IMG/VR virus record: IMGVR_UViG_3300031539_000177
Span: 1 to 32,498 of that record
Reading direction: 5' to 3' (one strand)
Source: a virus
Length of the DNA: 32,498 nucleotides
How positions within the stretch are numbered: position 1 is the stretch's first letter; every line of letters begins with the position of its first letter. The notes under the pieces are model-generated. The model ran no database searches. It saw only the letters and a program-made list of their open reading frames with translations, and was not told the origin of the DNA. A program made the position numbers and the translations under genes. Shown here piece after piece: positions 1 through 22,088 of the stretch.

Positions 1-89
1 ACGCCTGTATGTTTAGAAACTTGTGACAAATTACCATGATTTCTGTAAAATTTTAACATAAGTATTAGCCCGTCATATATTTCACTCAT
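1..89 (-). CDS. Small protein with helix-turn-helix-like segment, partial (C-terminus outside window)
   Basis: The frame starts with ATG at 89, runs to the window edge and gives at least 29 residues. A GGAG Shine-Dalgarno sits 7 bases upstream of the ATG. The start overlaps the end of the preceding gene by 8 bases, the junction style used throughout this phage. Visible residues include an acidic start (MSEIYDG), a hydrophobic helix, then GNLSQVSKHTGV. That last stretch resembles the first helix and turn of a homeodomain-like or resolvase-type helix-turn-helix (gap, L-S-x-V-S, T-G-V). It could be a small regulator, but too little is visible to assign a function. It is the fourth frame after the promoter at 1140-1168, counting the leader ORF. 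Confidence 0.55.
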   Translation of the reverse strand, partial: MSEIYDGLILMLKFYRNHGNLSQVSKHTG

Positions 90-588
90 CTTTTCTCTCC
101 GGTGTTACCGATGTGCTGGATTGAGCTTTGGCTATGGCAGCTCCAAGGCCACAATCACAAATTACTGGGCACTTGAACTTTTTCTCACCCAATTCAATTA
201 TTTCGGGAATATTGCATCGTTCAATCACAGCCAGACCACAATCGTATTTATGAAGCCCGTATTTTTCCAACGCTGCCAGCAAATCGGCATTGATGGCTTC
301 CAAAGTGTCGAGACGGTCTTTTACCGTCTGAAATTTCTCATTACCACAATTAGGACAACAAACTCCGCTCTCTGAGCCAAGTGTATCGTAATCATCGGCA
401 TCAAAAAAAACATTCCCACAAGGGCAAATATAGGTATTCTTTATGGTTCTTGTGTCGTACTCCCCTGCTATTGGTTGCTGCTTCAAGAGGGCTTCGATAT
501 GTTTTATAACAATATCCTTGTGGGGTTCTAATGTATCCCAATAATGGTCTTTTGCTTTTTCCAGCAACTCTATTGCTTTCTCATTCAT
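82..588 (-). CDS. Hypothetical phage protein with central zinc ribbon; tandem paralog of the upstream gene
   Basis: 168 residues. The start is fixed by GGAGG 7 bases upstream and by an ATGA overlap with the stop of the upstream gene. The N-terminus (MNEKAIELLEK) is identical to that of the upstream gene. The middle carries a Cys4-type ribbon (CPC ... CCPNC, about residues 55-85). This is followed by the segment EAINADLLAALE and a tail reading AAIAKAQSSTSV, both shared with the neighbour. The 'NAxLLxALE ... AIAKA' frame is common in small uncharacterised phage proteins. A second Cys cluster (CPVICDCG) lies near the C-terminus. The role is unknown; metal binding is inferred from the Cys spacing. 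The gene belongs to the transcription unit that starts at the consensus promoter near 1150. Confidence 0.75.
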   Translation of the reverse strand: MNEKAIELLEKAKDHYWDTLEPHKDIVIKHIEALLKQQPIAGEYDTRTIKNTYICPCGNVFFDADDYDTLGSESGVCCPNCGNEKFQTVKDRLDTLEAINADLLAALEKYGLHKYDCGLAVIERCNIPEIIELGEKKFKCPVICDCGLGAAIAKAQSSTSVTPERKDE

Positions 589-971
589 TGCCTTACCTCC
601 GGCTCTACTGATGTGCTGGATTGATACTTGGCTATGGCAGCTTCAATCTTTTCTGCTCTATCTTCACAAGACCGCAGAAATGCACATAAACCATTAAACT
701 TTGCCTTATAAATTGCCATAGATGGTTTTTCTGAACACTCTTCAGCAAAATCAGCATAAACAGAGATAATATTTGGTGCGGGAAATGTTTCACACGCTGT
801 CAGCAATTCAGCATTGATGGCTTCGGCTTGGTTCAAGAGGATAAGGGCATCTTCCACAAACACCATCATTTCATCAGCAGCCAGCTTTATGGTATGCTCT
901 GAATAGTCAGGGGATATTCTGCTTTTGATTTCCAGAACCTTTTCCAACAACTCTATTGCTTTCTCATTCAT
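585..971 (-). CDS. Hypothetical phage protein, paralog of the following gene
   Basis: 128 residues, first gene after the structured leader. The ATG at 971 follows AAGG by about 8 bases, and that AAGG lies inside the last codons of a leader ORF (976-1095). It shares MNEKAIELLEK at the N-terminus, the internal segment EAINAELL and the C-terminal AAIAKYQSSTSV with the next gene. Its middle instead holds a Cys/Ala-rich helical region with no zinc ribbon. The pair looks like a duplication followed by replacement of the central part. The C-terminal half resembles the widespread phage family with 'NAELLxA ... AIAK'. No function is known. Confidence 0.75.
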   Translation of the reverse strand: MNEKAIELLEKVLEIKSRISPDYSEHTIKLAADEMMVFVEDALILLNQAEAINAELLTACETFPAPNIISVYADFAEECSEKPSMAIYKAKFNGLCAFLRSCEDRAEKIEAAIAKYQSSTSVEPEVRQ

Positions 972-975
972 TTTC

Positions 976-1095
976 TTACCTTAATAAAAAAGGCCGTAGG
1001 GAGTTGGTATGCCGACAAGCACACAGAGAACTCCCCTTGGCCAAATTTTTGGGATTTTTGTTTTTCGATTTGAGAGTCTTGTCTTTTGTCGGCAT
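976..1095 (-). CDS. Candidate 39-residue leader ORF spanning the attenuator
   Basis: ATG at 1095 is preceded by GGAG with 8 bases of spacing, and the frame runs 39 codons to TAA at 976-978. The predicted peptide starts MPTKDKTLKSKNKNPKNLAK, is strongly basic, and ends with a Cys/Arg-rich part. The ORF crosses the whole terminator hairpin and stops just before the next gene's ATG (971). A ribosome on it would therefore unfold the RNA structures and feed into the next start. The same GGAG is the 5' arm of the antiterminator. It could instead be a chance frame inside a structured RNA. A second ATG at 1100 in another frame has too short a spacing to its Shine-Dalgarno. Confidence 0.4.
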   Translation of the reverse strand: MPTKDKTLKSKNKNPKNLAKGSSLCACRHTNSLRPFLLR

Positions 1096-1107
1096 ACCAT
1101 TAACTCC
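986..1107 (-). promoter_or_regulatory. Attenuator-like leader: antiterminator overlapping an intrinsic terminator
   Basis: On the transcribed (minus) strand, arm a (1107-1086) pairs with 1018-1000 as 13 bp (GGTATGCCGACAA) plus 6 bp (GGAGTT), with a 3-base bulge. A competing hairpin pairs 1042-1029 with 1005-992 (GGCC ... GGGAGTT with AACTCCC ... GGCC; 11 Watson-Crick pairs with a small internal mismatch) and is followed directly by TTTTTT (991-986). The AACTCC at 1005-1000 is used by both, so the two structures exclude each other. This is the layout of a transcription attenuator between a promoter and its first gene. All pairings are visible in the sequence; the switching role is inferred. 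Confidence 0.65.
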
Positions 1108-1139
1108 AATTGTATTCTCTTTACTATTCCATTATCGGC

Positions 1140-1168
1140 ATTATAACCGATGGACTTTAATTTGTCAA
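1140..1168 (-). promoter_or_regulatory. Consensus sigma-70 promoter
   Basis: TTGACA (1168-1163), a 17-base spacer and TATAAT (1145-1140) on the minus strand: both hexamers are perfect and the spacing is optimal. The predicted transcript starts near 1133, about 100 bases downstream of an intrinsic terminator that insulates it from the structural operon. The -10 box is embedded in ATCGG-N8-CCGAT, a 5-bp inverted repeat that could be an operator for a repressor. Such a promoter would be read by the host RNA polymerase. Confidence 0.85.
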
Positions 1169-1231
1169 CATAAATCTTTCCATTTTGTTAAAATATTTTC
1201 AGAATGTCGGTTTTTGGTCTGAAAACCAAAG

Positions 1232-1260
1232 AAAAAAGCCCCGATATTTCTACCGAGGCT
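1232..1260 (-). terminator. Rho-independent terminator at the end of the structural/lysis operon
   Basis: Minus-strand hairpin with a 10-bp stem (AGCCTCGGTA with TATCGGGGCT, two G-U pairs), a GAAA tetraloop and a TTTTTT tail. It lies 25 bases after the stop of the lipoprotein-like gene and ahead of the promoter at 1140-1168. A second small inverted repeat (TTTGGT ... ACCAAA) follows at about 1213-1230. Confidence 0.9.
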
Positions 1261-1284
1261 TCGGAGGAGGATTGATGAAAAGTT

Positions 1285-2054: not shown

Positions 2055-5000
2055 CTATCTTACTCTGTGCGGTTTCTTCTTTTCTGCCTCGATTTTTATA
2101 TCAACTGATTCTCCGGCGAATACATATTGTAGTTTCTGCACAAGGTCACGCTTCATTTTATAAGCATCGCCACGTCTCTTATATTCTTTGTCGATAGCCT
2201 CGTAGATGGTTCTCAAGGCCGACCTATCAAGATTCTTGCCCCCTGTTGTTGCTTCAATACCCCTGAGCGTCCAATCGTAGAACGGTATAAATGTATCCGA
2301 CATTCTTGGCAAGATTGTCGTTAGGGCATAGAGGGCTTTCTTATCGCCGCCAAGAGCCTTGATAGTATAGTTATAAGTCTCATTTACATCCTCGGTTATA
2401 CCGAGCATCAATCCGCCAAGTTGGAAATTCAAGATATTAAGAGGATTGTATGGATTTCGCTTTCGACCAGTTATTATACAATAAAGTTCACCCGTAAGAA
2501 TGCCACCAACTATAACTGCCGTAAGAACTTTAGCCGCCCTCATAACTTCCTGTGGGTCTGCACTGGTCAGTTTCTTTGTCTGATGTGCAAGTTTCTCTGC
2601 ATAAGCTCTTGGGAACAACATAAGGTTTCCAAAGACCCTGCCGAGCGGCCCCATCTCTGCCGGTGAACGCTGCGCCCTCTCATACAGGAAATGTATATCA
2701 TCGACGTGAACCCTTGAAACATATCTTGCCATTGCCTCTTTGCCATCTTTAGCAAGAATCCCCAAAGCCCTTACTTGTTCAAGCTCTGACATATCACTGA
2801 ACTTGGCTTCTTTCATCATCTCACTAACATCTTTATTTTCGAGCGCTCGTTTGACTTGGTTTATCTTTGCCCAGAATCCCCATTGTCTGTTCTTAACATC
2901 CGACCAGGCATAAATCTTTATCTTTTGCAGCATCTTCATAAGAGTTTTTGTGCCTGGCAAAGACCTCTCATTGACCATAAAGTATTCTTCCAGCATCGAC
3001 CTCAACTGTTGGACGTAGGTTTCCATATACTCCGTTTCTTCTTTGGTCAGATTTTCGTTGCGTGGGTCAAACAGAATACTCTTATCGTGTTCAAAGGCAG
3101 CGTTCTGGAATGTGTTTCTGAAAGCCAAGACCGGCTGTGCCATAATGATAATCTGCGAAGCCTGTGCATATATCCTCGCCATTACGTTTCCAAACCATTC
3201 ACCCTGAATGTTGTATCGCTTGAGATTTCTCAAGAATAGCTCAATAGATTCTTTGACCTTGGCTGGATTACTGAAACTATCCATATTATCATCATAGAGT
3301 CTCACAAGAGCATTTATCTTAGGCGACAGGTTATAGAGCATATCCATCTGTTTCATATAGGCGTTGAGACGTTGCAGGATGTTCCGTTCCTGCTCGTGGT
3401 ATTCAATGTCAGTTCTTATCTTAATATGAGATTTGCCTACCGTTTTTGGGCCAGTGTTATATAGATGTATCTTCCAGATAAAAGTTTCCAGAGGTTCATA
3501 ACCGGACTTGACAACTCCCCACTTCTGGGTTTTGAGATACTCTATCAAGGCTTCTTTGCCTTGACTGTCATAGACGTCCTCGGCCTTGTGGATTTCCTTT
3601 TTGTACTGGTCGTACTCGGCAATACCTTCACCGTAGTTGTACCAGTTAAAGAACTTGCCTACCCTTGCCTTTATTTCGTATTCTTTGGCTATTTTCTGAA
3701 TTTCCTGTGCCAGTTTCTTCTCTGCATCGGTAACTTTGGGTATTGCTGGCTTGTCCTTCAGGTCGCTCTGTGAGGCTATGTACGCCGCTACAGTGGCCAA
3801 ACTGCCCTCATTGCTTGCAATATCCCTAAAGTCAGGCACATCGTTCTCCATAGCCAATATACGGGCGTGGCGGGTCTTGTGCATCTCAAGGTTGGTATCC
3901 AGTAAGTCCATATACATAGAGAATATAGGTGCGCCGGTCTTTATCTCTGACTGTTGGGCGTAGTATCTCATACTCTCCGTGCGCCACGGGTCACGCTTGG
4001 ACTTGTCGGCTATCTCGCTTTGAAGTCGTGCTACCTCTGCGGCTATTTCAGGGTTCTTGGCAATGGCATTCTTATAAGGCTGTACGGCTCTGGCTATTTC
4101 AGACGCATCGTGCATCCTATTAATGATTTCCTTGCCTTCCTGCTCAGTAATGAATTTCTCCCCACTGATATACCTCGGTTCTTTGTGGCCTATCTTTTCA
4201 CCTTTCTTGCCGAATGTCGGTATTACTCTATTGAGTATCTCATCGAATTTCCCCTGTGATAGATGTTCTCTTTTAATGAGATTGTCTTTAAGGTTCTGGA
4301 TTTTCTTTTCGGTCTTTTGTGTGATGACCTTTTTGTGTCCTATCTGTTTGGGTCGTTTCTTTTCAACCGCCCGAAGAAGTGTCTTTAACTGGTCGGTTGT
4401 GATTTTGGTCTTGGAGATTTTGCCTGTTAGAGTACGATAACCAGTATGTTTTAATTTCAGGTCTGATAAGGCTTTTTTAGTGAGCCCTTTCTTGGCTGCG
4501 ATGGCGCCTATTCGCTGTCGGAGCTTGGTATTTAGGTCTTCTACTTTCTGCTCAATTCCTGTTATTCTTTCCTCTACTTTCGCTGGCTCTGCCTTAGTTG
4601 GCTGGGCTCGAATTGTATCAATATAATCTGCTACTGCTGCGTTAATAGCTTCTGTGCTGTACGGAATAAGATTTAAGTGTTCCTGTTTGCTTAGTGGTAC
4701 AGGAGTATCTCTCCAAAGGACAGACTTTGTACCATTATCTACATTAGCAAAGATACCTTCTATTTGAACACCAGATAACGGACGCAAGGTACTTATGTAA
4801 GCATACTTTTTACCTTCTCGCAAAGGTTTAACATTTTCGTTTGATAAAGCCTCCCCATACCAACTCATTGCTTTCTCTGCTCGGCTAAAACGCCTGAATA
4901 CTGGGTGGTTAATCTTATCAAAATTCTCTTCTAATGCTGCTTGTAATGTGTCATATTCATCGTGACCTGCTGGTTTACCTTCTTTAGTAAAATAAGTTAC

Positions 5001-8610: not shown

Positions 8611-9038
8611 TCTGTTATCCTTGCGTATAACCAGACATCACATCCATCTGGACAATATTTTTTCATAAGACCTTCAAGTTTGAATCCTATCGCTTCAACC
8701 ATTTTACGTGCCTTCGGAAAGTCCACTCTTACGGTGCATTGCGCCCGTCTCAATTTGTGCTTTTCTATTATGTCGTCAACCTTATCCTTTATGGCCTGAA
8801 ATGCCATTATTCCAAAGACACCTTCCCTCTTGCAATCGGCGGTAAGCATTAGCCAGAACTCGCCTACGCCGTCCCAGAGAACAATCGCACCGCCGACACC
8901 AACTATCTTGTCCTCGAATATCGCTGTAAAAGCAGGGGGCGTGGGTATCATTTTAGGATAGTTCTTAACCGCACCCTCTAAGGGGTTCTCTCGAACATAC
9001 TCAAGATCGCCGTCCTGTAAATCTCGTATTGTTATCAT
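8607..9038 (-). CDS. GNAT-fold acetyltransferase-like protein (virion-associated, gp13-like position)
   Basis: 143 residues from ATG at 9038, chosen because it forms an ATGA overlap with the upstream stop. The frame is open 15 residues further upstream, but inside the previous gene. It begins ITIRDLQDGDLEYV, a typical GNAT beta1-alpha1. KIVGVGGAIVLWDG forms the beta2-beta3 hairpin and FPKARKMVEAIGFKLEG the last helix and beta strand (the 'A..l.e..GF..eG' ending). The acetyl-CoA loop (RxxGxA) is poorly kept (CKREGVFGIMA). GNAT-like proteins occur in many podophage genomes beside the internal virion genes; whether they are enzymes is unclear. Confidence 0.7.
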   Translation of the reverse strand: MITIRDLQDGDLEYVRENPLEGAVKNYPKMIPTPPAFTAIFEDKIVGVGGAIVLWDGVGEFWLMLTADCKREGVFGIMAFQAIKDKVDDIIEKHKLRRAQCTVRVDFPKARKMVEAIGFKLEGLMKKYCPDGCDVWLYARITE

Positions 9039-10717
9039 CTTCCTGTTTTGTCCACTCTTGGTATTATTGCCCTGATTACACAAGGCATAGGGCCGTTATC
9101 TGAAATCACAAAATCATCTTCAACTCCAAAACCGCCATCGGGGTCTGCTATTGCATCACCTGTGAAAAGAGTAGTGCCAAGTGAAGGATTAAAGTCGTGA
9201 AGATTGTCCGTGTCCTCTCCGTACTTAGCACCTAAAGTCTTATAGAAACTGACCACAACCTCGGCAAATCTTTTTATACTTCCTTTTGTCGTACCGCCTT
9301 GAGTAACTATATCAAATCTCATAGGTTTGTAGATATACCTGTATTTCAATCCGAATTGTGCCTGATTGACGAAGTTATGTGCGTGTGGGTCTTCGGATGT
9401 AATATTTATAATTCCGTCTGAATCTACGACCTCGTCATCAAAGACTGTCGAAACGCCGTCAACGTCTGTCCCTAATATCGTTACCGTCTCTCCTATTAGA
9501 TGACTTAGAGTAAACTCATTCTCGACCTGTTGTGCCGTACCACCTGATTCGTAGGGCGTATAACCGGAACCCGCTACCTCTGAAGGCGTAGGAGATGGAG
9601 TAGCCGATGGGCTGGCGCTCGGACTGATAGATGCGCTCGGACTCTTTGAGGCTGACGGAGATTTTGATGCCGAGGGACTTATCGACAACGAACCGGATGG
9701 ACTGACAGACGATGACGCCGAAGATGAGGGGCTAATGCTGGCGCTCGGAGAAATTGATAGACTCGCCGATGCGGATGGTGATATAGACGGTGAAACCGAT
9801 GGGCTAATAGATGGTGAAACGGAGGCCGACGGGCTAATTGAAGGACTACGGCTGGCACTTGGAGAAATGGAAGGTGATACCGAAGCCGACGGTGAAACAG
9901 ACGGTGAAACAGACAGCGAAATTGAAGCTGACGGCGATATACTGGCTGATGGACTTAGCGAAGCCGTCAAACTCGGTGAAGCCGATGGGCTAATCGAGGC
10001 CGATGGGCTGGCAGAAGCGCTCGGACTTATTGATGCTGACGGACTGATGGACGGAGATACGCTTGCACTCGGTGACTTAGAGGCACTTGGCGCACCTGCA
10101 ATTACAATACCAATTGTTATAGCTACCCATTGTTCAGAAGCCGTTAATGCAAATGCCGCCGTTCCTGTCGCTCCTGCTGTTACTTGGTTTGTAGTTTGAT
10201 AAGCAGCGCCGCCGGAAGGCCCAGAAGCATCTCCGCTATAATCTACCGTAATTACAGTTGTTCCAGAAGGTTCACCATCATCCACTGTTATATCATCATC
10301 ATCCGCACCGAATATTCTTAGAATTAAAGCGCCATCTTTTGTGGTTGTAACCGAAGGACAGGTTGGTGTAGCAGAAGTCCCAGATGTTTGACCACTTATA
10401 TTTATCGGCAAAGTGGGATGAGCGCCGGTAATTCTTAATATAAAACCATAAGCTCGTTTTTCTCCTGTCCATGTAAAATTATAGGAAGCAGGTTCACTTG
10501 CACCTGCAATTTTATAAAAAACCCAAGCACTTATAGTTGAAAAACCAAATTGTATATATGTCCAACCAGTTGAAACAATATCAATTGGGGCACCTCCTAC
10601 AACAACAAAGGCGACCATCAAATCATTTTCAACAACACCCGTTGGTTTGTTTATCGTTAAAGATTCAACGATTGTTGCTGCTTTTGCTTCTGCGAAACTT
10701 GAATATGCTACTGCCAT
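9035..10717 (-). CDS. Beta-sandwich adhesin fused through a Ser-Pro stalk to the tail nozzle C-terminal domain
   Basis: 560 residues, TAATG junction with the upstream gene. Residues 1-205 form a beta-rich module (GVVENDLMVAFVVVGG, GWTYIQ, ISAWVFYKIAGASEPASYNF) common in phage and bacterial surface proteins. Residues about 207-380 are a low-complexity array of SPSxSx units. Residues about 385-560 match the C-terminal domain of the large tail protein family that normally continues from the FCCH-like domain: YESGGTA, LSHLIGETV, GLKYRYIYKPMRF, KRFAEVVVSFYKTLGAKYG, LFTGD and PMPCVIRAIIPRV. The N-terminal part of that family is encoded separately at 10953-13634. This gene therefore appears to hold the missing end of a split nozzle protein, now carrying an adhesin on a stalk. 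The domain assignment is from family knowledge; the assembly model is inference. Confidence 0.8.
   Translation of the reverse strand: MAVAYSSFAEAKAATIVESLTINKPTGVVENDLMVAFVVVGGAPIDIVSTGWTYIQFGFSTISAWVFYKIAGASEPASYNFTWTGEKRAYGFILRITGAHPTLPINISGQTSGTSATPTCPSVTTTKDGALILRIFGADDDDITVDDGEPSGTTVITVDYSGDASGPSGGAAYQTTNQVTAGATGTAAFALTASEQWVAITIGIVIAGAPSASKSPSASVSPSISPSASISPSASASPSASISPSASPSLTASLSPSASISPSASISLSVSPSVSPSASVSPSISPSASRSPSISPSASVSPSISPSVSPSISPSASASLSISPSASISPSSSASSSVSPSGSLSISPSASKSPSASKSPSASISPSASPSATPSPTPSEVAGSGYTPYESGGTAQQVENEFTLSHLIGETVTILGTDVDGVSTVFDDEVVDSDGIINITSEDPHAHNFVNQAQFGLKYRYIYKPMRFDIVTQGGTTKGSIKRFAEVVVSFYKTLGAKYGEDTDNLHDFNPSLGTTLFTGDAIADPDGGFGVEDDFVISDNGPMPCVIRAIIPRVDKTGR
9577..10096 (-). 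repeat. Ser-Pro stalk array encoding about 170 residues
   Basis: The coding strand specifies SPSxSx hexads (x mostly A, I, V or K) without interruption. Ser codons are mixed (AGT, AGC, TCN), so the repeat is stronger in protein than in DNA, which points to selection on the peptide rather than a fresh expansion. The complementary strand stays open and reads as Asp/Gly/Glu-rich; that frame is a shadow. Confidence 0.9.
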
Positions 10718-10956: not shown

Positions 10957-13634
10957 GCGCTTGGACTGACCTCTCTGAACGTCAGTAACTCAAATGTATC
11001 CACCGTCAAAACATTTACGGTATAAACATTACCATTCACTTCCGTCATTCCGACCACTCCTGCTATGTAAACTTGTTCTCCATCATTAAATCCGTGACCG
11101 ACGGCAGTAACGACCGGAGGGTCGGCGGCTGTAATGTTTGTTATGGTCACGGCTGCGCCACCGTCCCATTGACCACCACAATCCACAAACCACGCATCTT
11201 CTAAATCAACGTCAACCCTCGGCTGTAACTGCTCGACTGTCCTTGCAGTCGAACCGTTTATTGTTCTGGAAACGGTCAGCCAGACCTCATCCTCGTCTGT
11301 GCCTGGAATCACAGATACAGACTCTACAACAACGTCAGTTCCGCCTATGATATGATTCGCCCACGCTATTACATCCTGCTCCCTCTCGTATGACATTGAG
11401 ATTAACTTGCCATCATCCAGAACAAACCAGACAATATCATCAGGGTTTTTTTGGTGTGCCATACAGGTAATGCCCGTCAGTGTGATATGCTCTGCCAGCG
11501 CTGTAAGGTCGGGCGTTACAAACTTCTGCTTGTAATCACTAAAAGTCAATTCCCTTAGTTTTCTACCAGGGGAATCAACGAAAAGAATTGTATCGCCAAC
11601 CTGTACCGGCTGTATCTTGGCCGAACCTCTGGCGGTCTGGGGTCTTGCATTGAAATTGGTGGGAGTTATCTCCTCATCATTCGCCGTTGCTCTTATCCGC
11701 CATTCACCGCCCCTCGTACCTACGATAAGAGCCTCAATAGACGACATCCATCTGATACCGTTTCTTTTGTCCGATGATAATGTACGCCAGAATGAATCAC
11801 CGTCTTTAGTGCCTTCCTCAAAATCGTCAAAATCACGAGAACCACTAAACCATATAGTCTGTGGCCGATAAGTAGTACCACCGTAAACCGCCCTCTCCTC
11901 AAAGAATGTGAAGGCTGCCGGATAACCCCTGTATGCCGACCATGCGCCTTCGTTCCATCTCTTTGTAGCTTCAGTAGAAGCAAAGTCGGTTATAATCTCT
12001 GCCGTGACTTGCGTGGAACTCGTATAACCAATAACTCGACATATCCCGCTCTGCGTACTTTCATTTACGGTAATTTCAGCGTGACAAGTTCCACTTGTCC
12101 ACGTGGTCACGTTCAACCTGTATTGAACATTATCCGATTCCTCGGTGTAAGTATCGTTAAGATGTAAATCATTTGCCGTTACAAATGTCCTGTAAGTTTC
12201 CCAACCTTCGCTACTCTCGTTTCGTTGAAGTTCTATAGTGCCCGTCCATTCGCCGTGAACATTCCAGGAAAATGAACCCTTAACATCTATGGGAGCGCTC
12301 ATAACTCCGGTAGCTACTGCATCATCGCCCGTCTTAAAGACTAATCTTGGTTGGGTCAGTTGAAACAAAGCGCCCGGCGAAGTGGCATGAGAAGGGTCGA
12401 ATACCGCCGAAGATGAAACGAGGGTTATTTCTTTATAAGTCAAGTCTACATTTGTTGTTCCCCAAGCCTCAAGTTCATATAGAATACAATCGGCGTAAGC
12501 ATCAGAATTTACCCAAGTGGTCTTGGTATATAGATATATCTTTACAGCCGTAACATCTGTCCAGGGGCCGATTATATTTGATTTATTGTTAGTGGACGTA
12601 CCTACCGAAGTCCATGCTCCACCCTGCTGAACAGAAACAGCTACAGTACGGGTAGAAGAACCATTGTTATACCATCCTATCCAATATTTAATCTCATCAA
12701 GTCTCGTTACCGTCTCAATAAAAGTGAATGTCATTGTGAAATACGACCATGCGCTATAGCTATTTAATCTTTCCAAGGCGTTATTGTGACCACGCCTTTT
12801 GCGGTAAGTCAAAACATTGCCATCGTTAGTAGCGGCGACCGTACCGGAAGCCGTACCGGATGCAAGAGACTCTGCAGCCACACCAGTGTTATCAGAGGAA
12901 GCATAATCCAAAAAGGATTTCCACGTATCGCTCGGAGTAATTGTTACATCATCATCTTTTGCAAGATCGTTTCTTTTCAGGAAAGGGCCGTTAGTAAAAT
13001 TGATGACCGACAAATCGAAAGTATAAGCCGTTGTCCTCGTTAGTTTTCGAGGGGGATATTCGTTATGAGTAATCCAGACGACATCCGCAGACTGATGAAA
13101 TTGTAATTCAAATAAATCCGATTCCTGATACGGAGTAGGAGTTTCACAGATAGGATAATCGTCAGAATCAAGGTCGGCGACTACCCAATCAGTGAAATTG
13201 CTCGCAGGGTCATCGTGGTCGCCGTCATCGTCTGAAGTATGTGCTACTAAACATCTATAAACTACAGCGGTATGAGTAACGAACTGACCCATTATATAAG
13301 CGGTAGCATCAGCCCACGCCGTAGGTGTAGTAGTCGAACCTACTAATTGAGCACCATCGTAATAGAACCTGATATATTCAGGCCCGACTTCCATCTCGTA
13401 GGCAATTGTATCCGAAAACTGAAAGTCAACCATTCTCGATACTTGAGACGAATCCTTTGTTGATGCTATATACTTTGTGCCCGGCCGTCGCTCCGAACAA
13501 CCATAAATGCGGGGTATCATATTCCGCAACGTCCGGCAACTGGAAGAAAATTTCTTTAAGTCAGACCTTGCATCTATGAGGGGACTCACTTCTCCGGTAT
13601 TTGATGATAACACAGGTATATTAGTTGTTGCCAT
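10953..13634 (-). CDS. Tail tubular protein B-like nozzle protein, N-terminal portion (gp12-like)
   Basis: 893 residues, AAGGAG Shine-Dalgarno and TAATG start. The N-terminus (LSSNTGEVSPLIDARSDL, CRTLRNMIPRIYGCSERRPG) is the signature of a widespread podophage tail nozzle family. Later family landmarks are YYDGAQL, ETPTPYQESDLFELQF, WITHNEYPPRKLTR, the GGTTYRPQTIWFSGSRDFDD region, DDGKLISMSYEREQDVIAW and IIGGTDVVVESVSVIPG. A carbohydrate-binding (CBM5/12-like) module is inserted at about 106-151 (AWADATAYIMGQFVTH...VYRCLVAHTS). The C-terminus is an FCCH-like domain (VTAVGHGFNDGEQVYI, MTEVNG, DTFEL) and stops abruptly at REVSPSA. The usual final domain is absent here and is found at 9035-10717. 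The product probably forms the DNA-exit nozzle. Confidence 0.85.
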   Translation of the reverse strand: MATTNIPVLSSNTGEVSPLIDARSDLKKFSSSCRTLRNMIPRIYGCSERRPGTKYIASTKDSSQVSRMVDFQFSDTIAYEMEVGPEYIRFYYDGAQLVGSTTTPTAWADATAYIMGQFVTHTAVVYRCLVAHTSDDDGDHDDPASNFTDWVVADLDSDDYPICETPTPYQESDLFELQFHQSADVVWITHNEYPPRKLTRTTAYTFDLSVINFTNGPFLKRNDLAKDDDVTITPSDTWKSFLDYASSDNTGVAAESLASGTASGTVAATNDGNVLTYRKRRGHNNALERLNSYSAWSYFTMTFTFIETVTRLDEIKYWIGWYNNGSSTRTVAVSVQQGGAWTSVGTSTNNKSNIIGPWTDVTAVKIYLYTKTTWVNSDAYADCILYELEAWGTTNVDLTYKEITLVSSSAVFDPSHATSPGALFQLTQPRLVFKTGDDAVATGVMSAPIDVKGSFSWNVHGEWTGTIELQRNESSEGWETYRTFVTANDLHLNDTYTEESDNVQYRLNVTTWTSGTCHAEITVNESTQSGICRVIGYTSSTQVTAEIITDFASTEATKRWNEGAWSAYRGYPAAFTFFEERAVYGGTTYRPQTIWFSGSRDFDDFEEGTKDGDSFWRTLSSDKRNGIRWMSSIEALIVGTRGGEWRIRATANDEEITPTNFNARPQTARGSAKIQPVQVGDTILFVDSPGRKLRELTFSDYKQKFVTPDLTALAEHITLTGITCMAHQKNPDDIVWFVLDDGKLISMSYEREQDVIAWANHIIGGTDVVVESVSVIPGTDEDEVWLTVSRTINGSTARTVEQLQPRVDVDLEDAWFVDCGGQWDGGAAVTITNITAADPPVVTAVGHGFNDGEQVYIAGVVGMTEVNGNVYTVNVLTVDTFELLTFREVSPSA

Positions 13635-15181
13635 TAAAAGACACTCCTTGTACTACTGGTAAGATTCCTCACTTCTGTCACTATTCCACCCACTACTTTT
13701 ATGTGAGTAATCGGGCCTTCGTAATTGATACCACCGAAGAAATATGACGGACTTGCGGATGCAGATGGGGATATAGATGGTGACGCCGAAGAAGAAGGAC
13801 TTATCGAAGGCGAAACTGAAGCAGACGGTGAAATTGAAGGCGAAACTGAAGCAGACGGACTAATAGAAGGACTGGCGCTCGGACTCACGGATGCCGACGG
13901 GCTAATCGAACCTGTCAAACTCGGCGAAGCCGATGGGCTGATGGATGGTGAAATTGAAGCTGAAGGCGAAATCGAAGCAGAAGGGCTAATGCTCGGACTG
14001 ACTGATGGCGAAACCGATGCAGAAGGACTAACCGATGCCGAGGGACTAATGCTTGGACTCACAGACGCAGACGGTGAAATTGATGCTGACGGACTAATTG
14101 ACGGACTCACCGAGGCAGATGGACTAATACTTGGTGAAGCCGATGCTGACGGGCTTATGCTCGGTGATACTGACGCAGACGGCGAGATAGACGCTGATGG
14201 GCTTATGGATGGACTGACGGAAGCCGAAGGAGAAATTGAAGCGGACGGACTGATACTTGGACTAACAGAAGCTGAAGGACTAATCGAGGCCGAAGGACTA
14301 ATCGACGGTGAGACAGATGCCGAAGGACTAATGCTCGGAGAAACAGACGCCGATGGACTAACTGATGCACTCGGAGATATACTCGGACTAACGGAATCGC
14401 TCGGTGATATTGACGCAGACGGGCTAACCGATGCCCCTGTTGACACATAACCACCGAGAAGAGCAATCTCGGCAGGGTCTTTGAACATACAAAATGGCTC
14501 TCGGTAGAGTTGGGATATTTCAGAAGCAGATAAGGCACGTAAATATTCTGAAAAAATAACTGAGTCACATGCACAAGTAGAGCCAAGTGTTCTTGGCCCC
14601 ATTGTATTTGTAGGTGCAGCGACTTGAGCTATTGATACAAGTTCAACACCATTTGCATATAACCGAATTGTAGCCTTGTCCCATGAAACAACAAAACAAG
14701 CTATGCTATTTCCAAAAGGCCAACCGTCCGTATAAACCTTTTTGGTTGATACTACTGTACCACCAAATTCAATTCTTATATTAAACCAATATAAAGTCCC
14801 GTCTCGATGTTCCAAAGAGAGCATTATTGTGTTATCATCGTCTCGATAACCATATATTATAGTGTCTTCACTCCATAATGCTGCTGGTTCTGTAATTTTC
14901 GCCCAATAAACCCATGTAAAACCATTACTGTAATCGTGATATGGGGTATTAATTAAAATATGATTATCACCATTATCATCTGTAGTTATCTGAGACCCCA
15001 TTGAGCCAGTTGACCAAGCAGCAGTACCCATCAATGTTGCAGTAGTACCATTCCCGCTCAAATCAAAGACTTGACCGCCTGAGCCTTCAAGCATAGGCCA
15101 GAAGCCAGCATCAGGCACAAGACCACTATCGTAGTCTAATGGCCATCCCATAGGTGGTTTTTGTTGATATGGCCAACCCAT
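13634..15181 (-). CDS. LamG-like lectin on a Ser-Pro stalk, putative tail adhesin
   Basis: 515 residues, TAATG junctions at both ends. Residues about 1-245 form a concanavalin A/LamG-like domain: DAGFWPMLEGSGGQVFDLSG at the start, GFTWVYWAKI, WDKATIRLYANGVEL and LSASEISQLYREPFCMF at the end, the usual closing phrase of phage LamG modules. Residues about 250-479 are an SPSxSx array. The last ~36 residues (SYFFGGINYEGPITHIKVVG...) are a non-repetitive tail that could anchor the protein to the virion. LamG-like domains bind glycans or surface proteins, so receptor binding is the likely job. The order lectin-stalk-anchor is the same as in the gene at 9035-10717. Confidence 0.8.
   Translation of the reverse strand: MGWPYQQKPPMGWPLDYDSGLVPDAGFWPMLEGSGGQVFDLSGNGTTATLMGTAAWSTGSMGSQITTDDNGDNHILINTPYHDYSNGFTWVYWAKITEPAALWSEDTIIYGYRDDDNTIMLSLEHRDGTLYWFNIRIEFGGTVVSTKKVYTDGWPFGNSIACFVVSWDKATIRLYANGVELVSIAQVAAPTNTMGPRTLGSTCACDSVIFSEYLRALSASEISQLYREPFCMFKDPAEIALLGGYVSTGASVSPSASISPSDSVSPSISPSASVSPSASVSPSISPSASVSPSISPSASISPSASVSPSISPSASISPSASVSPSISPSASISPSASVSPSISPSASASPSISPSASVSPSISPSASISPSASVSPSISPSASVSPSASVSPSVSPSISPSASISPSASISPSISPSASPSLTGSISPSASVSPSASPSISPSASVSPSISPSASVSPSISPSSSASPSISPSASASPSYFFGGINYEGPITHIKVVGGIVTEVRNLTSSTRSVF
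13745..14435 (-). repeat. Ser-Pro stalk array encoding about 230 residues
   Basis: Continuous SPSxSx hexads, mostly SPSASV, SPSISP and SPSASI. Codons are diversified overall, yet short recent duplications exist: the 20-bp sequence GGCGAAACTGAAGCAGACGG (plus-strand reading) occurs twice about 30 bp apart near 13810-13858. Length may vary between isolates. Confidence 0.9.
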
Positions 15182-15825
15182 TAGGCATCAGCTCCACATT
15201 CAACGACAAAAGCTATTTCGCTATTATTTATCGTAACTGTATCCTCAAGGAAAACAAACTTACCAAGATGAGTAAGTTTGCCGGTTGTTGGGTCTGTTAC
15301 AGAAAGTGTAGTTTGCGCTGCCGCTTCCTGTGCTGCAAAGTCGGATTTAACAGCTACGGCAGCATATGCCAGTACGTTAACTTTTGTTATTGTTACCCAT
15401 TCGTCAACAGAATCTTCTTTCCTGCCCTGAACAATAACTTCAATGCCGGTTGTGTTTGCAGTTACCGAAGATTGACATACATCAACAGCAATAATTGAGT
15501 CCCATGAAGCACTTGTATCAAAAGCCGAACTCTCGGCAACGGCTGGCGGTGTTAATGCCAACCAAGCATCCTCTTGATTAGCTGTTTTCGTAGGTGTCGT
15601 AATTGATGTTGTCCTCAATAACTTAGTTCGATAATGAACTCTACCACCATCAGGGTCGTAAGCTCCGTTATAGATTACCCTTGCTGCCTTATATACAAGT
15701 GGTATGTGAAACTGGTTGCTATATACAGACGAGTTCGTTGCATGGTCTTGGGTATAAATGTCAGAAGTTGTTTCCTTCTGGTGCATAATCCCATCTAAAA
15801 TTAAAATTGTATCTACCGCTGCCAT
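15181..15825 (-). CDS. Hypothetical virion structural protein
   Basis: 214 residues with AAGGAG 8 bases upstream and TAATG junctions on both sides, between the sugar-gene block and the LamG adhesin. The sequence is beta-rich, with alternating hydrophobic residues and many Thr, Ser and Val (HIPLVYKAARVIYNGAYD, IIAVDVCQSSVTANTTGIEV, AFVVECGAD). Such composition and position suit a small tail or decoration protein. I recognise no family. It has no signal peptide or membrane segment. Confidence 0.6.
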   Translation of the reverse strand: MAAVDTILILDGIMHQKETTSDIYTQDHATNSSVYSNQFHIPLVYKAARVIYNGAYDPDGGRVHYRTKLLRTTSITTPTKTANQEDAWLALTPPAVAESSAFDTSASWDSIIAVDVCQSSVTANTTGIEVIVQGRKEDSVDEWVTITKVNVLAYAAVAVKSDFAAQEAAAQTTLSVTDPTTGKLTHLGKFVFLEDTVTINNSEIAFVVECGADA

Positions 15826-17432
15826 TATTTAATCTCCTTCAAGAATTCATTGAATCTGTCTTTTGTTTTACCCCATCCGGGTATCTCGTCCGCCATTAGC
15901 CAGCCCTGACAAGACTTCGGACTTCTGAACTGGTCTTGCCTGAACCTGTTGGCGGTCAGGTTATATGCGTGTCGAATATCTATATTCGGGAATTGAGACT
16001 CCCAAGAAACCGCTTTGTAGTTATCAATGCCCCTCGGAAAAGCGTGTGTGCCAGGTTCGTATCCTATCTTGTAGTCGTGACCATTGTTGCCGACCCTCTC
16101 AATTCTTTTGCGATAATGTTCTACGAGTAACTCTCGATAGGCACATAAACCTGAAGTCTGCTGGGTATAGTAATAAAGTGCCTGTCCGTCACTCTCCCGC
16201 AACTTCCAAGTGTTAGTATTGTAATAATAGACATCTTTCAAATCCGGCGTGAAATCGAAATGGGTAGGATGGTATAACATATCGTGTTCGACCAGAAAGG
16301 CAATGTCCGTATCCAGAGCCTCCAGACCGGCAAGAATCTGCTTGAACATTGTTACACGACCTCTAATGTCCGGCAGTACGATGTTCGTACCGAAATCAAT
16401 GGGATACAACGAAACGGATACGATAGGGAATCCCATATTATTAAGGAGCTTGCGATTGACTTGAACTATCTGCTCGGAAGCCCTGTTATCGGTATAGTAC
16501 ACCAAACCTTTAGATAAATCCTGACGTGCCTGCCACGTAGGAACGGGAGCAAACTTATCTATGAGCCATTGAAACTTTCGCTTCTGCAAAGGCCACTTGT
16601 TATTTTTCCAGAGGTCACGCGAATACTGACGTGCCTTCTCCTGTTCTGAACCGTGTATCTTATAAGGAAAGCCAAACGGCCCCGTAGTACGGAACATATG
16701 GGCGAACCAAGTTTTTTTATTGACTACATGCCTGCCGCCAGACAACCAAGCCTTACAAGCGATTTCAGCGCCGACTTGTCCCCAACTGCCGTGCTTTTCA
16801 TCGAGGCCGCCTAACTCTAAGAACCTCTTTCTATGTTGAAACCAGCACGCCCCCTGACCATTCATAACGTCAACTATGTCACCTTTAGCCTCCGGCCTCT
16901 CTCCATAACTGCCCCAATACTGAACCCTCAAGTCTTTATCGAGGCACATAAAATCTGTTTTTCTGCTCTTGCGAATCTTCCAGATATATTTCATCTTTAG
17001 AGGAAACTGGCAGTTCGGGCATTTGTTCTCTTTTTTGAGTCCGAATTTGTCCTGATAGAAGTTATGCCCGTTCTCGCAGACCCAATCAAAGACGTGAAGA
17101 TTATACATTCGGGGAAGAACAGTCCAGTCGTACTCACAGTCGGCCATTAACTTAACGTCAAAACCTTCATCGAGCATTGAATGAGCATCCGTTTTGAGAA
17201 TGTATTTAGCCCGGCTTAGATTTGCAGCTTCGTTGACGGCAGCCCTTTGGCCTATTGGTGTGGTATGGTGGATTATGGTTACGCGGGGGTCATCTTTTAT
17301 CTGTGGTTCAGGCCAGTAATCCTGAATGACAGCGATAATCTCCGTGTCCGCCTTAATTGCAGACAGAATCTTCTCGATAGTTCCGGCAAGGAACATCTCA
17401 TTACGTGCTGGTATTATTACTGATACATCCAT
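15825..17432 (-). CDS. Two-domain GT-A glycosyltransferase with a zinc-ribbon insertion
   Basis: 535 residues. Residues 1-300 are a family 2 glycosyltransferase: VSVIIPARNE, IIAVIQDYW, IKDDPRV and the DxH at 82-84 (TDAHS) where DxD is usual. An inserted zinc ribbon follows (C119, H123, C138, C141), then QGACWFQHR and AWLSGGRHVVNKKTWFAH. It is a clear paralog of the gene at 19495-20361. Residues about 305-535 form a second domain starting KGLVYYTDNR with LVEHDMLYHP, possibly another nucleotide-sugar domain. It ends GWGKTKDRF. The start is the ATG at 17432; a better Shine-Dalgarno (GAAAGGG) serves an out-of-frame ATG at 17445. Its stop forms TAATG with a structural gene. The donor sugar and target are unknown. 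Confidence 0.85.
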   Translation of the reverse strand: MDVSVIIPARNEMFLAGTIEKILSAIKADTEIIAVIQDYWPEPQIKDDPRVTIIHHTTPIGQRAAVNEAANLSRAKYILKTDAHSMLDEGFDVKLMADCEYDWTVLPRMYNLHVFDWVCENGHNFYQDKFGLKKENKCPNCQFPLKMKYIWKIRKSRKTDFMCLDKDLRVQYWGSYGERPEAKGDIVDVMNGQGACWFQHRKRFLELGGLDEKHGSWGQVGAEIACKAWLSGGRHVVNKKTWFAHMFRTTGPFGFPYKIHGSEQEKARQYSRDLWKNNKWPLQKRKFQWLIDKFAPVPTWQARQDLSKGLVYYTDNRASEQIVQVNRKLLNNMGFPIVSVSLYPIDFGTNIVLPDIRGRVTMFKQILAGLEALDTDIAFLVEHDMLYHPTHFDFTPDLKDVYYYNTNTWKLRESDGQALYYYTQQTSGLCAYRELLVEHYRKRIERVGNNGHDYKIGYEPGTHAFPRGIDNYKAVSWESQFPNIDIRHAYNLTANRFRQDQFRSPKSCQGWLMADEIPGWGKTKDRFNEFLKEIK

Positions 17433-17463
17433 TTATCATTTTCATTTTTTCCCTTTCAAGGAA

Positions 17464-18138
17464 TCAAGTTTTGCCCCAGCCATCGGGGTTTGCCACTAAC
17501 AATTTATTCTCTCTGTTCTCGATAAAATATTTCATCATAAGATTGTGCATTTTCTGTTTTGGTATTTTTAGTCGGTATCCTGATTCTTTTTTTACATCAG
17601 GAGTATAGACCGCAGGAATCAATGAACGTGAGTATATCTTATGTTTTGTCCCCCTGCGGCGAAGCCTTTCCACTAACTCCTTATCTTCAGGGCCGTAGAA
17701 CTCGAATCTTTCATCGAATCCACCAGCGTCAATAAATTCCTCTTTTTGAATAACCAAAAGTGAATCCCAAGGGCCGGGTATCATCCAGACCGCTCCTGCA
17801 TCTATCAAAACCCTTATCACATGAAAGAAGTATCCAGACGGCAGGTTATCCGCATTGGCCAAAACAAGATATTCTCCACTTGCGGCCAATGCTGAGAGGT
17901 TTCTTGCTTTCGCCATGTGGTAGTATTTATGTCCCGTATGCTTTACATATACTATGTTGTTACCGTCTTTGAGTTGCGGCAGGGTCTTGGCATATTCCTC
18001 CAAACCGTCATCTGAATCATAGTCCAATATAACAATCTCCACCGGCGGACTCCTCTTCGCCGCCGCAATTACCGCTACCAGCGATTGCTTCAAGTCGTCT
18101 ATCCTGTTCCTAATTGGTATGCAATAACTTATTACCAT
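17464..18138 (-). CDS. Family 2 GT-A glycosyltransferase
   Basis: 224 residues. The N-terminus VISYCIPIRNR and VEIVILDYDSDDG are the nucleotide-binding strands. KARNLSALAASGEYLVLANADN carries the metal-binding DxD position as NADN (95-98). GGFDERFEFYGPEDKEL (139-155) is the acceptor-side motif seen in galactosyl and N-acetylgalactosaminyl transferases of the GT2/GT7-C type. The C-terminus ends PDGWGKT, similar to the end of the next gene product. It overlaps the methyltransferase-like gene by 7 bases. Cytoplasmic, no membrane segment. Likely transfers a hexose or HexNAc, substrate unknown. Confidence 0.85.
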   Translation of the reverse strand: MVISYCIPIRNRIDDLKQSLVAVIAAAKRSPPVEIVILDYDSDDGLEEYAKTLPQLKDGNNIVYVKHTGHKYYHMAKARNLSALAASGEYLVLANADNLPSGYFFHVIRVLIDAGAVWMIPGPWDSLLVIQKEEFIDAGGFDERFEFYGPEDKELVERLRRRGTKHKIYSRSLIPAVYTPDVKKESGYRLKIPKQKMHNLMMKYFIENRENKLLVANPDGWGKT

Positions 18139-18626
18139 AGTCCTATCTTATTAACGTCCACAAAATTACTTAATACCTTCGTTCTGGGTCTGGTTAAGAA
18201 TTGATAACTATATTTATAGAGTGGATATGTTTCTTTATAATGATAATATCTTTCGTCTCTACCACAGGTATCGTGTATTATTACAAACTTTGCATAATCG
18301 GCCACTCTGCGAGCTTCTATGTTGCGCCTATTCCATTCATGGTCTATAAAGACAACGTCCCAAGGCTTTTCAATATCTATCTTGTCCCAGTCCTCTACGT
18401 AATTAACAATATGAAATTCACACACATATTGCGTGGCTATCTTGTAATAATTTATGTTACTGTCATAAGATACAAGTCTTCTCTTATCTGGAACGCACAA
18501 CCAATGCAAAACCGGCGTACTGAACAATCCTGTACCACATTCCAGAACATCACCTGTAGTCTCAATTATCATCCTTATCAACAATGGTAAATGTGAGCTA
18601 AAACGAATATGTTGTTCTGGTCTCAC
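18132..18626 (-). CDS. Class I methyltransferase-like Rossmann protein
   Basis: 164 residues from GTG at 18626, preceded by a perfect AAGGAGG and overlapping the previous stop as GTGA. VLECGTGLFSTP (27-38) is the SAM-binding glycine loop, LVSYDSN (51-57) the acidic second strand, DVVFIDHEWNRR (90-101) the motif IV region and VIIHDT (115-120) the next strand. This 'GTG.FST ... IDHE ... HDT' pattern is found in a group of small methyltransferase-like proteins beside glycan genes. It may methylate a sugar added by the neighbours, capping the glycan. Activity is inferred from the fold only. Confidence 0.7.
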   Translation of the reverse strand: MRPEQHIRFSSHLPLLIRMIIETTGDVLECGTGLFSTPVLHWLCVPDKRRLVSYDSNINYYKIATQYVCEFHIVNYVEDWDKIDIEKPWDVVFIDHEWNRRNIEARRVADYAKFVIIHDTCGRDERYYHYKETYPLYKYSYQFLTRPRTKVLSNFVDVNKIGLW

Positions 18627-19507
18627 GTTACCTCCTTGATAATTTCCATAATGGTATCAACAGCCTTGACGTGGTTGTGATGTTCCAGAACTATGTTCCT
18701 GTTCGTAATACCATCTTCGGGTTTGTATTGAGATATTAAACCCGTAAAGACTTTGGTTTTGCATTCAAGACTATAAGCCCTGCCTGAAAGATTATTCATT
18801 CGACTTCTTCGATAAGTATCTTTATTGATATAACCATCGCCACGTCTGCGGTCGAAGACTATCACAGGACGGCAACAGGCCATTGCCTCAAGTACCCCTC
18901 TGCCAAGAGATATGACTATATCCACTTCGTTTATATAGTCCTCTACGTTATATTTGGGATGTGAGGTGTAACCAAGGTGGCGGAACTCGATACCTATTAT
19001 TTTACACGCTTTTTGAATAGTTTCGTATGTCCGCCACCTTTTGAAGTTACTTAAAAATAATAACCGTTTAGGTTTTTCGCTGACAGGCTTTGTGCAATGA
19101 AATCTATCGGTGTCAATGAAGTTTCGTACTATTTGTACGTTTGTAATATCGTAAGAGGCTAAATTCAATAAGACTTCTTCACTGACTGCGATGTACTTAT
19201 CAATATGAATATCCACCGGCGGCTGTTCCAATTCAGGTAGTATTCCGTGCGAAGTGAATATCATCGGTGTATCAAGCCACTTGTTTCTCATCTCTCTCGC
19301 TAACGTGCTGTGTTGTGCGAGAATAACGTCCGGCCTTTCAGCCAATAACAACGATGATATGGTATTCATACGTGCCGCCAGTGCGCCACCTTCGGGACTA
19401 TAAACAACAACCTTATGACCTCTTGATACGAGCTGGTTATAAAGCGTTAGCGTATAGGTAGGAACGCCTGTATAATTCAAAAGAGCTGTACTTATCAAGA
19501 TGTCCAT
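18623..19507 (-). CDS. GT-B (family 4-like) glycosyltransferase
   Basis: 294 residues from ATG at 19507 (MDILIST). An in-frame ATG 5 codons upstream lacks a spaced Shine-Dalgarno. GVPTYTLTLYNQLVSRGHKVVVYSP is the N-terminal Rossmann start of GT-B enzymes; DVILAQHST and FTSHGILPE continue it. IDKYIAVSEEVLLNL is the helix before the hinge, NFIDTDRF the post-hinge loop, RLLFLSNF the C-domain start. SLGRGVLEAMACCRPVIVFD is the EX7E-type donor site with Glu retained. It is shorter than typical family 4 members (350-400), mainly in the C-terminal domain. It overlaps its upstream neighbour by 13 bases. Likely a cytoplasmic nucleotide-sugar transferase. Confidence 0.85.
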   Translation of the reverse strand: MDILISTALLNYTGVPTYTLTLYNQLVSRGHKVVVYSPEGGALAARMNTISSLLLAERPDVILAQHSTLAREMRNKWLDTPMIFTSHGILPELEQPPVDIHIDKYIAVSEEVLLNLASYDITNVQIVRNFIDTDRFHCTKPVSEKPKRLLFLSNFKRWRTYETIQKACKIIGIEFRHLGYTSHPKYNVEDYINEVDIVISLGRGVLEAMACCRPVIVFDRRRGDGYINKDTYRRSRMNNLSGRAYSLECKTKVFTGLISQYKPEDGITNRNIVLEHHNHVKAVDTIMEIIKEVT

Positions 19508-20361
19508 TCGTATTTTTCCCATCCTGGTACTGGCGCAAAATGGTCAATGAGCCATTTGAAGTCTCTTATTTGGCCAGGCCACCTATTGTTCATCCAGTAA
19601 TCGACAATTCGTTCAGAACCTTGTTGTATTTCCTTTCGGGCCAAGTAATAGCCACGTCCGTACTGCTTGCCTTTGTGTAAATGTGCATACCAAGTCTTTT
19701 TATTGCGAATGACCCTCCCGCCAGATAACCATACCTTATTACCTAATTCCTGCGCTTCGCGTGTGAATGTGCCGCCAATCGTATCGTCCATACACCCTAT
19801 CTTGAAGTAATAGTCTCTGTGCATAAACCAGCAGGAACCCTGAAAGGTCATCAGGTCGTCTATTAAAACGTCTTTGCGATTCCTTTCTTCTTCGTACCCT
19901 CGCCAGATTACTCCGCTATACCCAGGCTCCCAATACCTTCCGTCTTCGGGCTTTTTCTTTATGGGCGGGATAATGTATAGATAATTTACTGTCTTACTAT
20001 CGTCGGGCTTTCTCTTCCATTTCTCAGCGTCCAGACTATACCTTGTAGGCACGGCCAGCCAGTCAGGTTCGCAATCCGCAGCAAGTTTAATATCAAAGCC
20101 CTTATCGAACGAACAGTGTCCGTCACACTTCATTATGTATTTGCCTTTAGCTATTCGGGCGGCCTCGTTTATGGCTTCACGCATACCGTGTCTTGTGTGA
20201 TGTATCAGAACAACGTGCGGGTCGTCCTTAATAGGTACTTTAGGCCAGTCACCATCAAGAACAGCTATAATCTCAATATCACCTTCGGCAGACTCTATCA
20301 GACCGTCTATGGTCGGCTGTAAGAACTGTTCATTGCACGAAGGTATAATTACCGATAGCAT
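19495..20361 (-). CDS. Family 2 GT-A glycosyltransferase, paralog of the two-domain enzyme
   Basis: 288 residues, GGGAG Shine-Dalgarno and TAATG junction with the tail gatekeeper gene. LSVIIPSCNEQF, IIAVLDGDWP and IKDDPHV form the nucleotide-binding half. KCDGHC (78-83) gives a DxH in place of DxD, as in the paralog at 15825-17432. FQGSCWFMHRDY, KVWLSGGRVIRNKKTWYAH and DFKWLIDHFAPVPGWEKYEW follow in the same order as there, but with no zinc ribbon and no second domain. The first of five sugar genes, so it couples the cassette to the tail operon. Confidence 0.9.
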   Translation of the reverse strand: MLSVIIPSCNEQFLQPTIDGLIESAEGDIEIIAVLDGDWPKVPIKDDPHVVLIHHTRHGMREAINEAARIAKGKYIMKCDGHCSFDKGFDIKLAADCEPDWLAVPTRYSLDAEKWKRKPDDSKTVNYLYIIPPIKKKPEDGRYWEPGYSGVIWRGYEEERNRKDVLIDDLMTFQGSCWFMHRDYYFKIGCMDDTIGGTFTREAQELGNKVWLSGGRVIRNKKTWYAHLHKGKQYGRGYYLARKEIQQGSERIVDYWMNNRWPGQIRDFKWLIDHFAPVPGWEKYEWTS

Positions 20362-21860: not shown

Positions 21861-22088
21861 TTATTCTCCTATTAGTTTGCCGTTTTCGTCTCTCGGCCAT
21901 ATATTAAGTTTCTGTTCACCAAAAGGTACGGTGACCTGTATCTTTGTGGAATACGTAGGCTCACCGTACCTTGTGGTATATCCTGCTTTGGCATTTCTGC
22001 GCAAAACTTCCTCACGAACATTCTTCTCAGATTCAGTAACTGAAACAATGTCCATTTCAGCGTTTTTTGCTCGTTTAAGAATCTGCAC
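21861..22088 (-). CDS. Hypothetical small protein, GTG start or ATG 11 codons later
   Basis: 75 residues from GTG at 22088, with AAAGG 7 bases upstream; an ATG 11 codons later has only a weak site. Charged N-terminal helix (KRAKNAEMDIVSVTESEKNVREEVLRR), then a short Thr/Gln-rich strand region (TKIQVTVPFGEQKLNIWPRD). The start lies 14 bases inside the preceding small ORF in another frame, so translational coupling or a frameshifted fusion is possible. No family recognised. Confidence 0.5.
   Translation of the reverse strand: MQILKRAKNAEMDIVSVTESEKNVREEVLRRNAKAGYTTRYGEPTYSTKIQVTVPFGEQKLNIWPRDENGKLIGE

Follow-up and report, generated by a model that had tools for sequence, protein, structure and literature searches.

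What decides whether the two small genes at the end of this viral DNA are transcribed? The window, by which we mean the whole 32.5-kb IMG/VR virus record analysed here, carries its genes in one direction on the minus strand, among them those for a terminase, a portal (PF12236), an HTVC010P-like capsid (PF19821) that compares with pelagiphage capsids at about 45%, and further structural proteins. At the end of the late genes lie, in order, a terminator-like hairpin, a promoter, a leader and two small genes (Table 1). An earlier note had described the leader as attenuator-like, placed behind a perfect sigma-70 promoter and insulated by a terminator of its own upstream; the promoter and the upstream terminator were both found. 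The two small genes overlap, the last codon of the first being common with the first codon of the second.

Table 1. Positions of the leader, its segments and neighbouring features in the window.
Feature	Position	Strand	Remarks
Intrinsic-terminator-like hairpin, ends upstream late/structural operon	1235..1262	(-)	12-bp stem, then TTTCTTTGG
Upstream DNA, near-identical in L003 (ACCAAAAACCGACATTCTGAAAATATTTTAACAAAATGGAAAGA...)	1169..1234	(-)	part of 100-nt alignment at 91%
Consensus sigma-70 promoter, TTGACA-17-TATAAT	1140..1168	(-)	12/12 match; hexamers kept in L003
Arm A, GGAGTTAATGGTATGCCGACAA	1086..1107	(-)	partner of C in read-through fold; SD (GGAG) and AUG inside
Possible leader ORF, 39 codons (MPTKDKTLKSKN...)	976..1095	(-)	SD GGAG 8 nt before ATG
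Invariant GACTCTCAA	1070..1078	(-)	GACTCTC pairs with B in predicted read-through fold
Segment B, GGCCAAGGGGAGTT + CTCT + GTGTGCT	1018..1042	(-)	5' side of terminator hairpin
Segment C, TTGTCGGCATACCAACTCCCTACGGCC	992..1018	(-)	A competes for 1018-1000, B for 1013-992
T6 tract, candidate terminator	986..991	(-)	from sequence
First downstream gene, 128 aa, no known family	585..971	(-)	
Second downstream gene, 168 aa, two CxxC motifs	82..588	(-)	

Two predicted folds compete for one segment of the leader

Folding of positions 1133-971 gave -45.7 kcal/mol, with z = -3.8 against shuffled sequences. The 19-bp pairing that had been claimed is correct as a perfect 14-bp inverted repeat (1005-1018/1086-1099) with a 5-bp extension (GGAGT/ACTCC); together these join 1107-1086 to 1018-1000, with a 3-nt bulge on the 5' side, and the two arms, A and C, are separated by 67 nt. 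The number of perfect 14-bp inverted repeats (loop of 100 nt or less) expected in the window is about 0.015, and the A:C repeat is the sole perfect inverted repeat of at least 13 nt within 110 nt found in it.

The terminator stem proposed in the earlier note (1042-1029 with 1005-992, followed by T6) is also present, and inside its 23-nt "loop" lies an inner 7-bp stem that had been overlooked, GTGTGCT/GGCATAC (1024-1018/1013-1007). The complete B:C hairpin contains 4+8+7 bp, or 19 pairs, at -26.5 kcal/mol (z = -4.25). The reported sharing of AACTCC (1005-1000) between the two pairings is real, but its extent was understated: because the inner stem also uses C, most of 1018-1000 is contested. 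Indeed C (TTGTCGGCATACCAACTCCC) is contested almost end to end by the mutually similar strands A (GGAGTTAATGGTATGCCGACAA) and B (GGGGAGTTCTCTGTGTGCT). Folding bears out that the two structures exclude each other, in that A:C and B:C cannot coexist as ordinary nested stems. Left to fold freely, the window leader adopts A:C at -42.2 kcal/mol, compared with -32.9 kcal/mol for enforced B:C, a difference of 9.3.

A diverged homologue keeps both folds

The sole relative found is in a 48.8-kb IMG/VR contig (L003), which was reached by a search with the protein of the gene at 971-585; the homologue was detected via that protein, independently of the hairpin. No relative of the window portal was detected in this contig. 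Its promoter region matches that of the window over 100 nt at 91%, promoter included, and identity is 95% across the opening 44 nt of the 971 gene. The leader copy, at 3514-3635 upstream of the homologous gene, is about 65% identical to the window, below the level of these well-conserved flanks; whether this reflects faster change or recombination we cannot say. Extra DNA flanks the element on both sides in L003: about 205 nt more than in the window separate it from the promoter, and roughly 360 nt follow it before the next homologous gene begins.

The L003 leader folds as A:C at -44.0 kcal/mol against -37.4 kcal/mol for enforced B:C (difference 6.6). When arm A was masked in folding, B:C formed in both the window and L003, and when it was unmasked A:C formed in both. 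The terminator hairpin of L003 (z = -4.36) has the same architecture of 4 bp, a 2x2 loop, 8 bp, an inner loop and 6-7 bp; the hairpin itself is present, and the U-tract after it is weak (TTATATTG, 5 T of 8).

The A:C arms read GGTATGCAGGCA/TGCCTGCATACC in L003 and GGTATGCCGACA/TGTCGGCATACC in the window, with two differences per arm. Both differences sit at partner positions and restore Watson-Crick pairs (C-G to A-U and A-U to G-C), leaving zero broken pairs in the 14-bp stem of L003. Compensatory pairs fell to 0 when the register was slid by 1-3 columns, and the chance of both changes falling on partners and pairing is about 0.0017; a shuffle control of the compensation (138/500) is uninformative for a two-row alignment. 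In C, both compensated positions fall within what becomes the terminator loop, and A:C has therefore been selected apart from B:C. Furthermore, GGTATGC and GTGTGC are invariant in both phages, and both must pair with one GCATACC. Compensated loop pairs together with these invariant strands are, as far as the two sequences can be read, the prediction of a three-strand switch.

We also randomly mutated the window copy at 12, 20 and 30% (3 x 2000 variants), a null that assumes unconstrained substitution. None of the 6000 variants had both folds as stable as those of L003, and either single fold reached this in at most 2.4%. Homologous leaders that had lost the pairing were named beforehand as evidence against a switch; the one homologue (n=1) keeps it. 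Conservation of the structure rests on two sequences, the window and L003. Because L003, otherwise unrelated, keeps both folds despite its changed letters, the leader is probably a real genetic switch, and the attenuator-like architecture suggested earlier is supported by folding and by this diverged copy.

Two regions next to the element also drew our attention. Preceding the -35 box, some 65 nt (window 1234-1169; L003 3220-3290) are near-identical in both phages, a level of conservation that neither the promoter spacer nor the leader reaches; this DNA is a possible UP element, operator or recombination anchor. In L003, the stretch at 3640-3806 that separates the element from the next genes holds candidate hairpins; its z is only -1.3, it has no Rfam match, and a second terminator-like hairpin (GCTCG..CGAGC ATTTTTG) closes it.

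Searches for further copies

Rfam covariance models, at gathering and relaxed thresholds, gave no credible match in the window or L003. Pattern scans of IMG/VR recovered no copy beyond L003, and exact motifs recovered just L003 and L004, which are one contig. The loosest pattern matched four other IMG/VR sequences (L007-L010), none of which has the inner motifs. Among matches in genome contigs, those from Methanosarcinales/ANME-2 lack the inner stems and those from Geomonas are short tandem palindromes in 43-nt units; the matches that were compared with the covariance model of the element do not fit it. In Geomonas diazotrophica (L011, L014 and L018) the tandem 43-nt repeats (TTTGGAGTTAAGTGGTATGCCGTTAAAGCCTAAGGGCATACCG) form short hairpins at several sites, and they resemble arm A in sequence but not in architecture. 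No DNA match to the element was found in phage and plasmid records. A covariance-model search of 395 genomes and a DNA search of 398 genomes from two arbitrarily chosen phyla returned nothing beyond chance, a result of little weight. No tRNA or tmRNA was found, and no description of the element was found in the open-access literature.

A model for the probable switch

Based on these results, we consider it most likely, with a probability of about 0.58, that the leader acts as a two-state attenuator of transcription, driven by a strong promoter of host type. In the model we propose, the loop part of C (TTGTCG) would leave the polymerase first and would be captured by arm A. Since TTGTCG is predicted to pair only with A, A:C would be favoured both kinetically and energetically whenever A is free. 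A:C would then zip up while GACTCTC holds B; the U-tract would have no hairpin next to it, and transcription would continue into the genes from 971 downwards. As A:C is favoured on both counts, read-through is the likely default. If arm A were occupied as C emerges, B would pair with C, the terminator hairpin would form directly before U6, and transcription would stop near 986.

A ribosome at the SD/AUG is a candidate occupant of arm A, a protein or an antisense RNA being the alternatives. The SD (GGAG) and AUG lie inside arm A in both phages, with a spacing of 8 nt in the window and 6 nt in L003, which makes the ribosome the best candidate, and we tentatively name it as the most likely one. 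No ligand-like domain or trigger was identified. The possible leader ORF stops (TAA) 4 nt short of the ATG that starts the 971 gene. Between the window and L003, substitutions number 8/11/9 across its codon positions, with no third-position bias and hence no coding signature, and no codon run is common to the two leader peptides (MPTKDKTLKSKN... in the window, MQAKHQTLNSTK... in L003); the substitution pattern leaves the ORF unsupported as a conserved protein. A possible 43-codon ORF (MEQNKKGAKKDEVLSKRLKRKYLGCSWTVDNSLSMYVFNFDWS) between promoter and element in L003 (approximately 3390-3521) is absent from the window. Its stop codon falls inside arm A, and it would be a second possible route to ribosome occupancy of that arm. 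Given the L003 U-tract and the approximately 360-nt distance to the gene, the conserved function may be other than termination.

Alternative explanations

The perfect promoter, the compact structured RNA, its terminal intrinsic terminator and the terminator upstream would also suit a stand-alone, trans-acting small RNA gene of about 145 nt that ends at U6, with the downstream genes transcribed by leak. We regard this as unlikely, as the most stable fold (A:C) abolishes the terminator hairpin, which would be odd for a simple small RNA gene; additionally, T6 is only 15 nt from the ATG at 971, and in L003 the element is away from the promoter and has a weak U-tract.

Next in order, and likewise unlikely, the hairpin could control translation or stability, with A:C masking the SD/AUG of the short ORF, or else providing a site for RNase III or stabilising the 5' end, and its likeness to a terminator would be secondary. 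The placement of the SD and AUG in arm A of both phages, the minimum-energy status of A:C and the unconserved U-tract of L003 agree with such a role. However, the B:C hairpin and the inner stem are conserved as well and would be superfluous for it, and the short ORF shows no third-position bias in its substitutions.

An improbable extension is a trans-acting, phage-specific RNA switch through which the leader self-regulates or excludes related phages. Once terminated, leaders would expose a free arm A together with a hairpin; the loop of the latter, a covarying toehold, would be complementary to arm A of other transcripts and confer the specificity. Counted in its favour, the toehold differs between phages whose promoter DNA is nearly unchanged, and the strongest pairing of each arm A is with the C of its own leader (-30.1/-28.8 kcal/mol for window/L003, against -16.9/-23.8 kcal/mol when swapped), whereas B:C has no self-specificity between the two phages.

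More improbable again is that the inverted repeat works as DNA, for instance as a recombination or integron-like site, an operator or a replication hairpin exchanged between phages. The region is a mosaic common to phages with different structural genes, a tyrosine integrase is encoded nearby in L003, and compensatory changes would preserve a DNA hairpin too; yet three-segment competition, U6 and an upstream consensus promoter are needs of an RNA switch and not of a DNA site, and the arms are 67 nt apart. Finally, a processive antitermination element like HK022 put, which modifies RNA polymerase, would explain a structured RNA directly after a strong promoter at an operon start, but is highly improbable given the leader's own terminator-like alternative fold and an L003 copy that is not promoter-proximal.

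Comparison with known systems

In the immunity system of phage P4 (CI RNA), leader segments compete for pairing and decide the premature termination of a phage operon. The attenuator proposed here resembles it in its competing segments, an analogy only, set beside P4 by description. P4 differs in its trans-acting RNA, with which the own-arm pairing preference seen here is at most compatible. Attenuators of the trp/his type are similar: their 5' leader has an antiterminator hairpin and a terminator hairpin that exclude each other, a U-tract and a short ORF with an SD. They differ in that here the last segment is the contested one (A:C versus B:C), such that occupancy of arm A favours termination; unlike amino-acid attenuators, this leader has no run of one amino-acid codon, and its ORF is unsupported as coding. 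Riboswitches likewise place a leader RNA with two alternative folds ahead of a gene, whereas here there is no Rfam match and no conserved aptamer-like core was recognised. Riboswitches have been called "a rare feature in phages", an example being the glutamine riboswitch of phage Melnitz (PMC9004378). HK022 put is described as an antitermination RNA of a phage early leader that acts on the polymerase itself (PMC9378689). It is like the present element, by analogy only, in being a phage leader RNA that affects termination, and differs in that competition here is with a terminator hairpin of the same leader.

The element adds a new example to a known type of device, and reports of such switches from phages are few. 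Its compact three-segment switch has been kept by compensation while passing between phages whose structural genes are unrelated, which suggests that it serves accessory or early genes as a portable module of control. About 150 nt would suffice for a directly testable construct, for which both an on state and an off state are predicted.

Additional features of the two phages

The small genes of the window (82-588 and 585-971) and of L003 (4001-4321) are near-identical over their first ~40 nt (GGTAAGAAAATGAATGAGAAAGCAATAGAGTT) and over their last ~30 nt (QSSTSVEP), with middles that differ in the manner of exchangeable cassettes. The 3' end of the L003 gene overlaps a convergent tyrosine integrase gene. 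Elsewhere in the window, two structural-region proteins (9035-10717 and 13634-15181) contain long SPSAS-type low-complexity repeats, and a group of proteins at 15825-20361 appears glycosyltransferase-like by eye. Downstream of the capsid region, a 17-nt inverted repeat between ORFs (21918-21977; 94% complementary, 26-nt spacer) is a possible terminator or processing hairpin.
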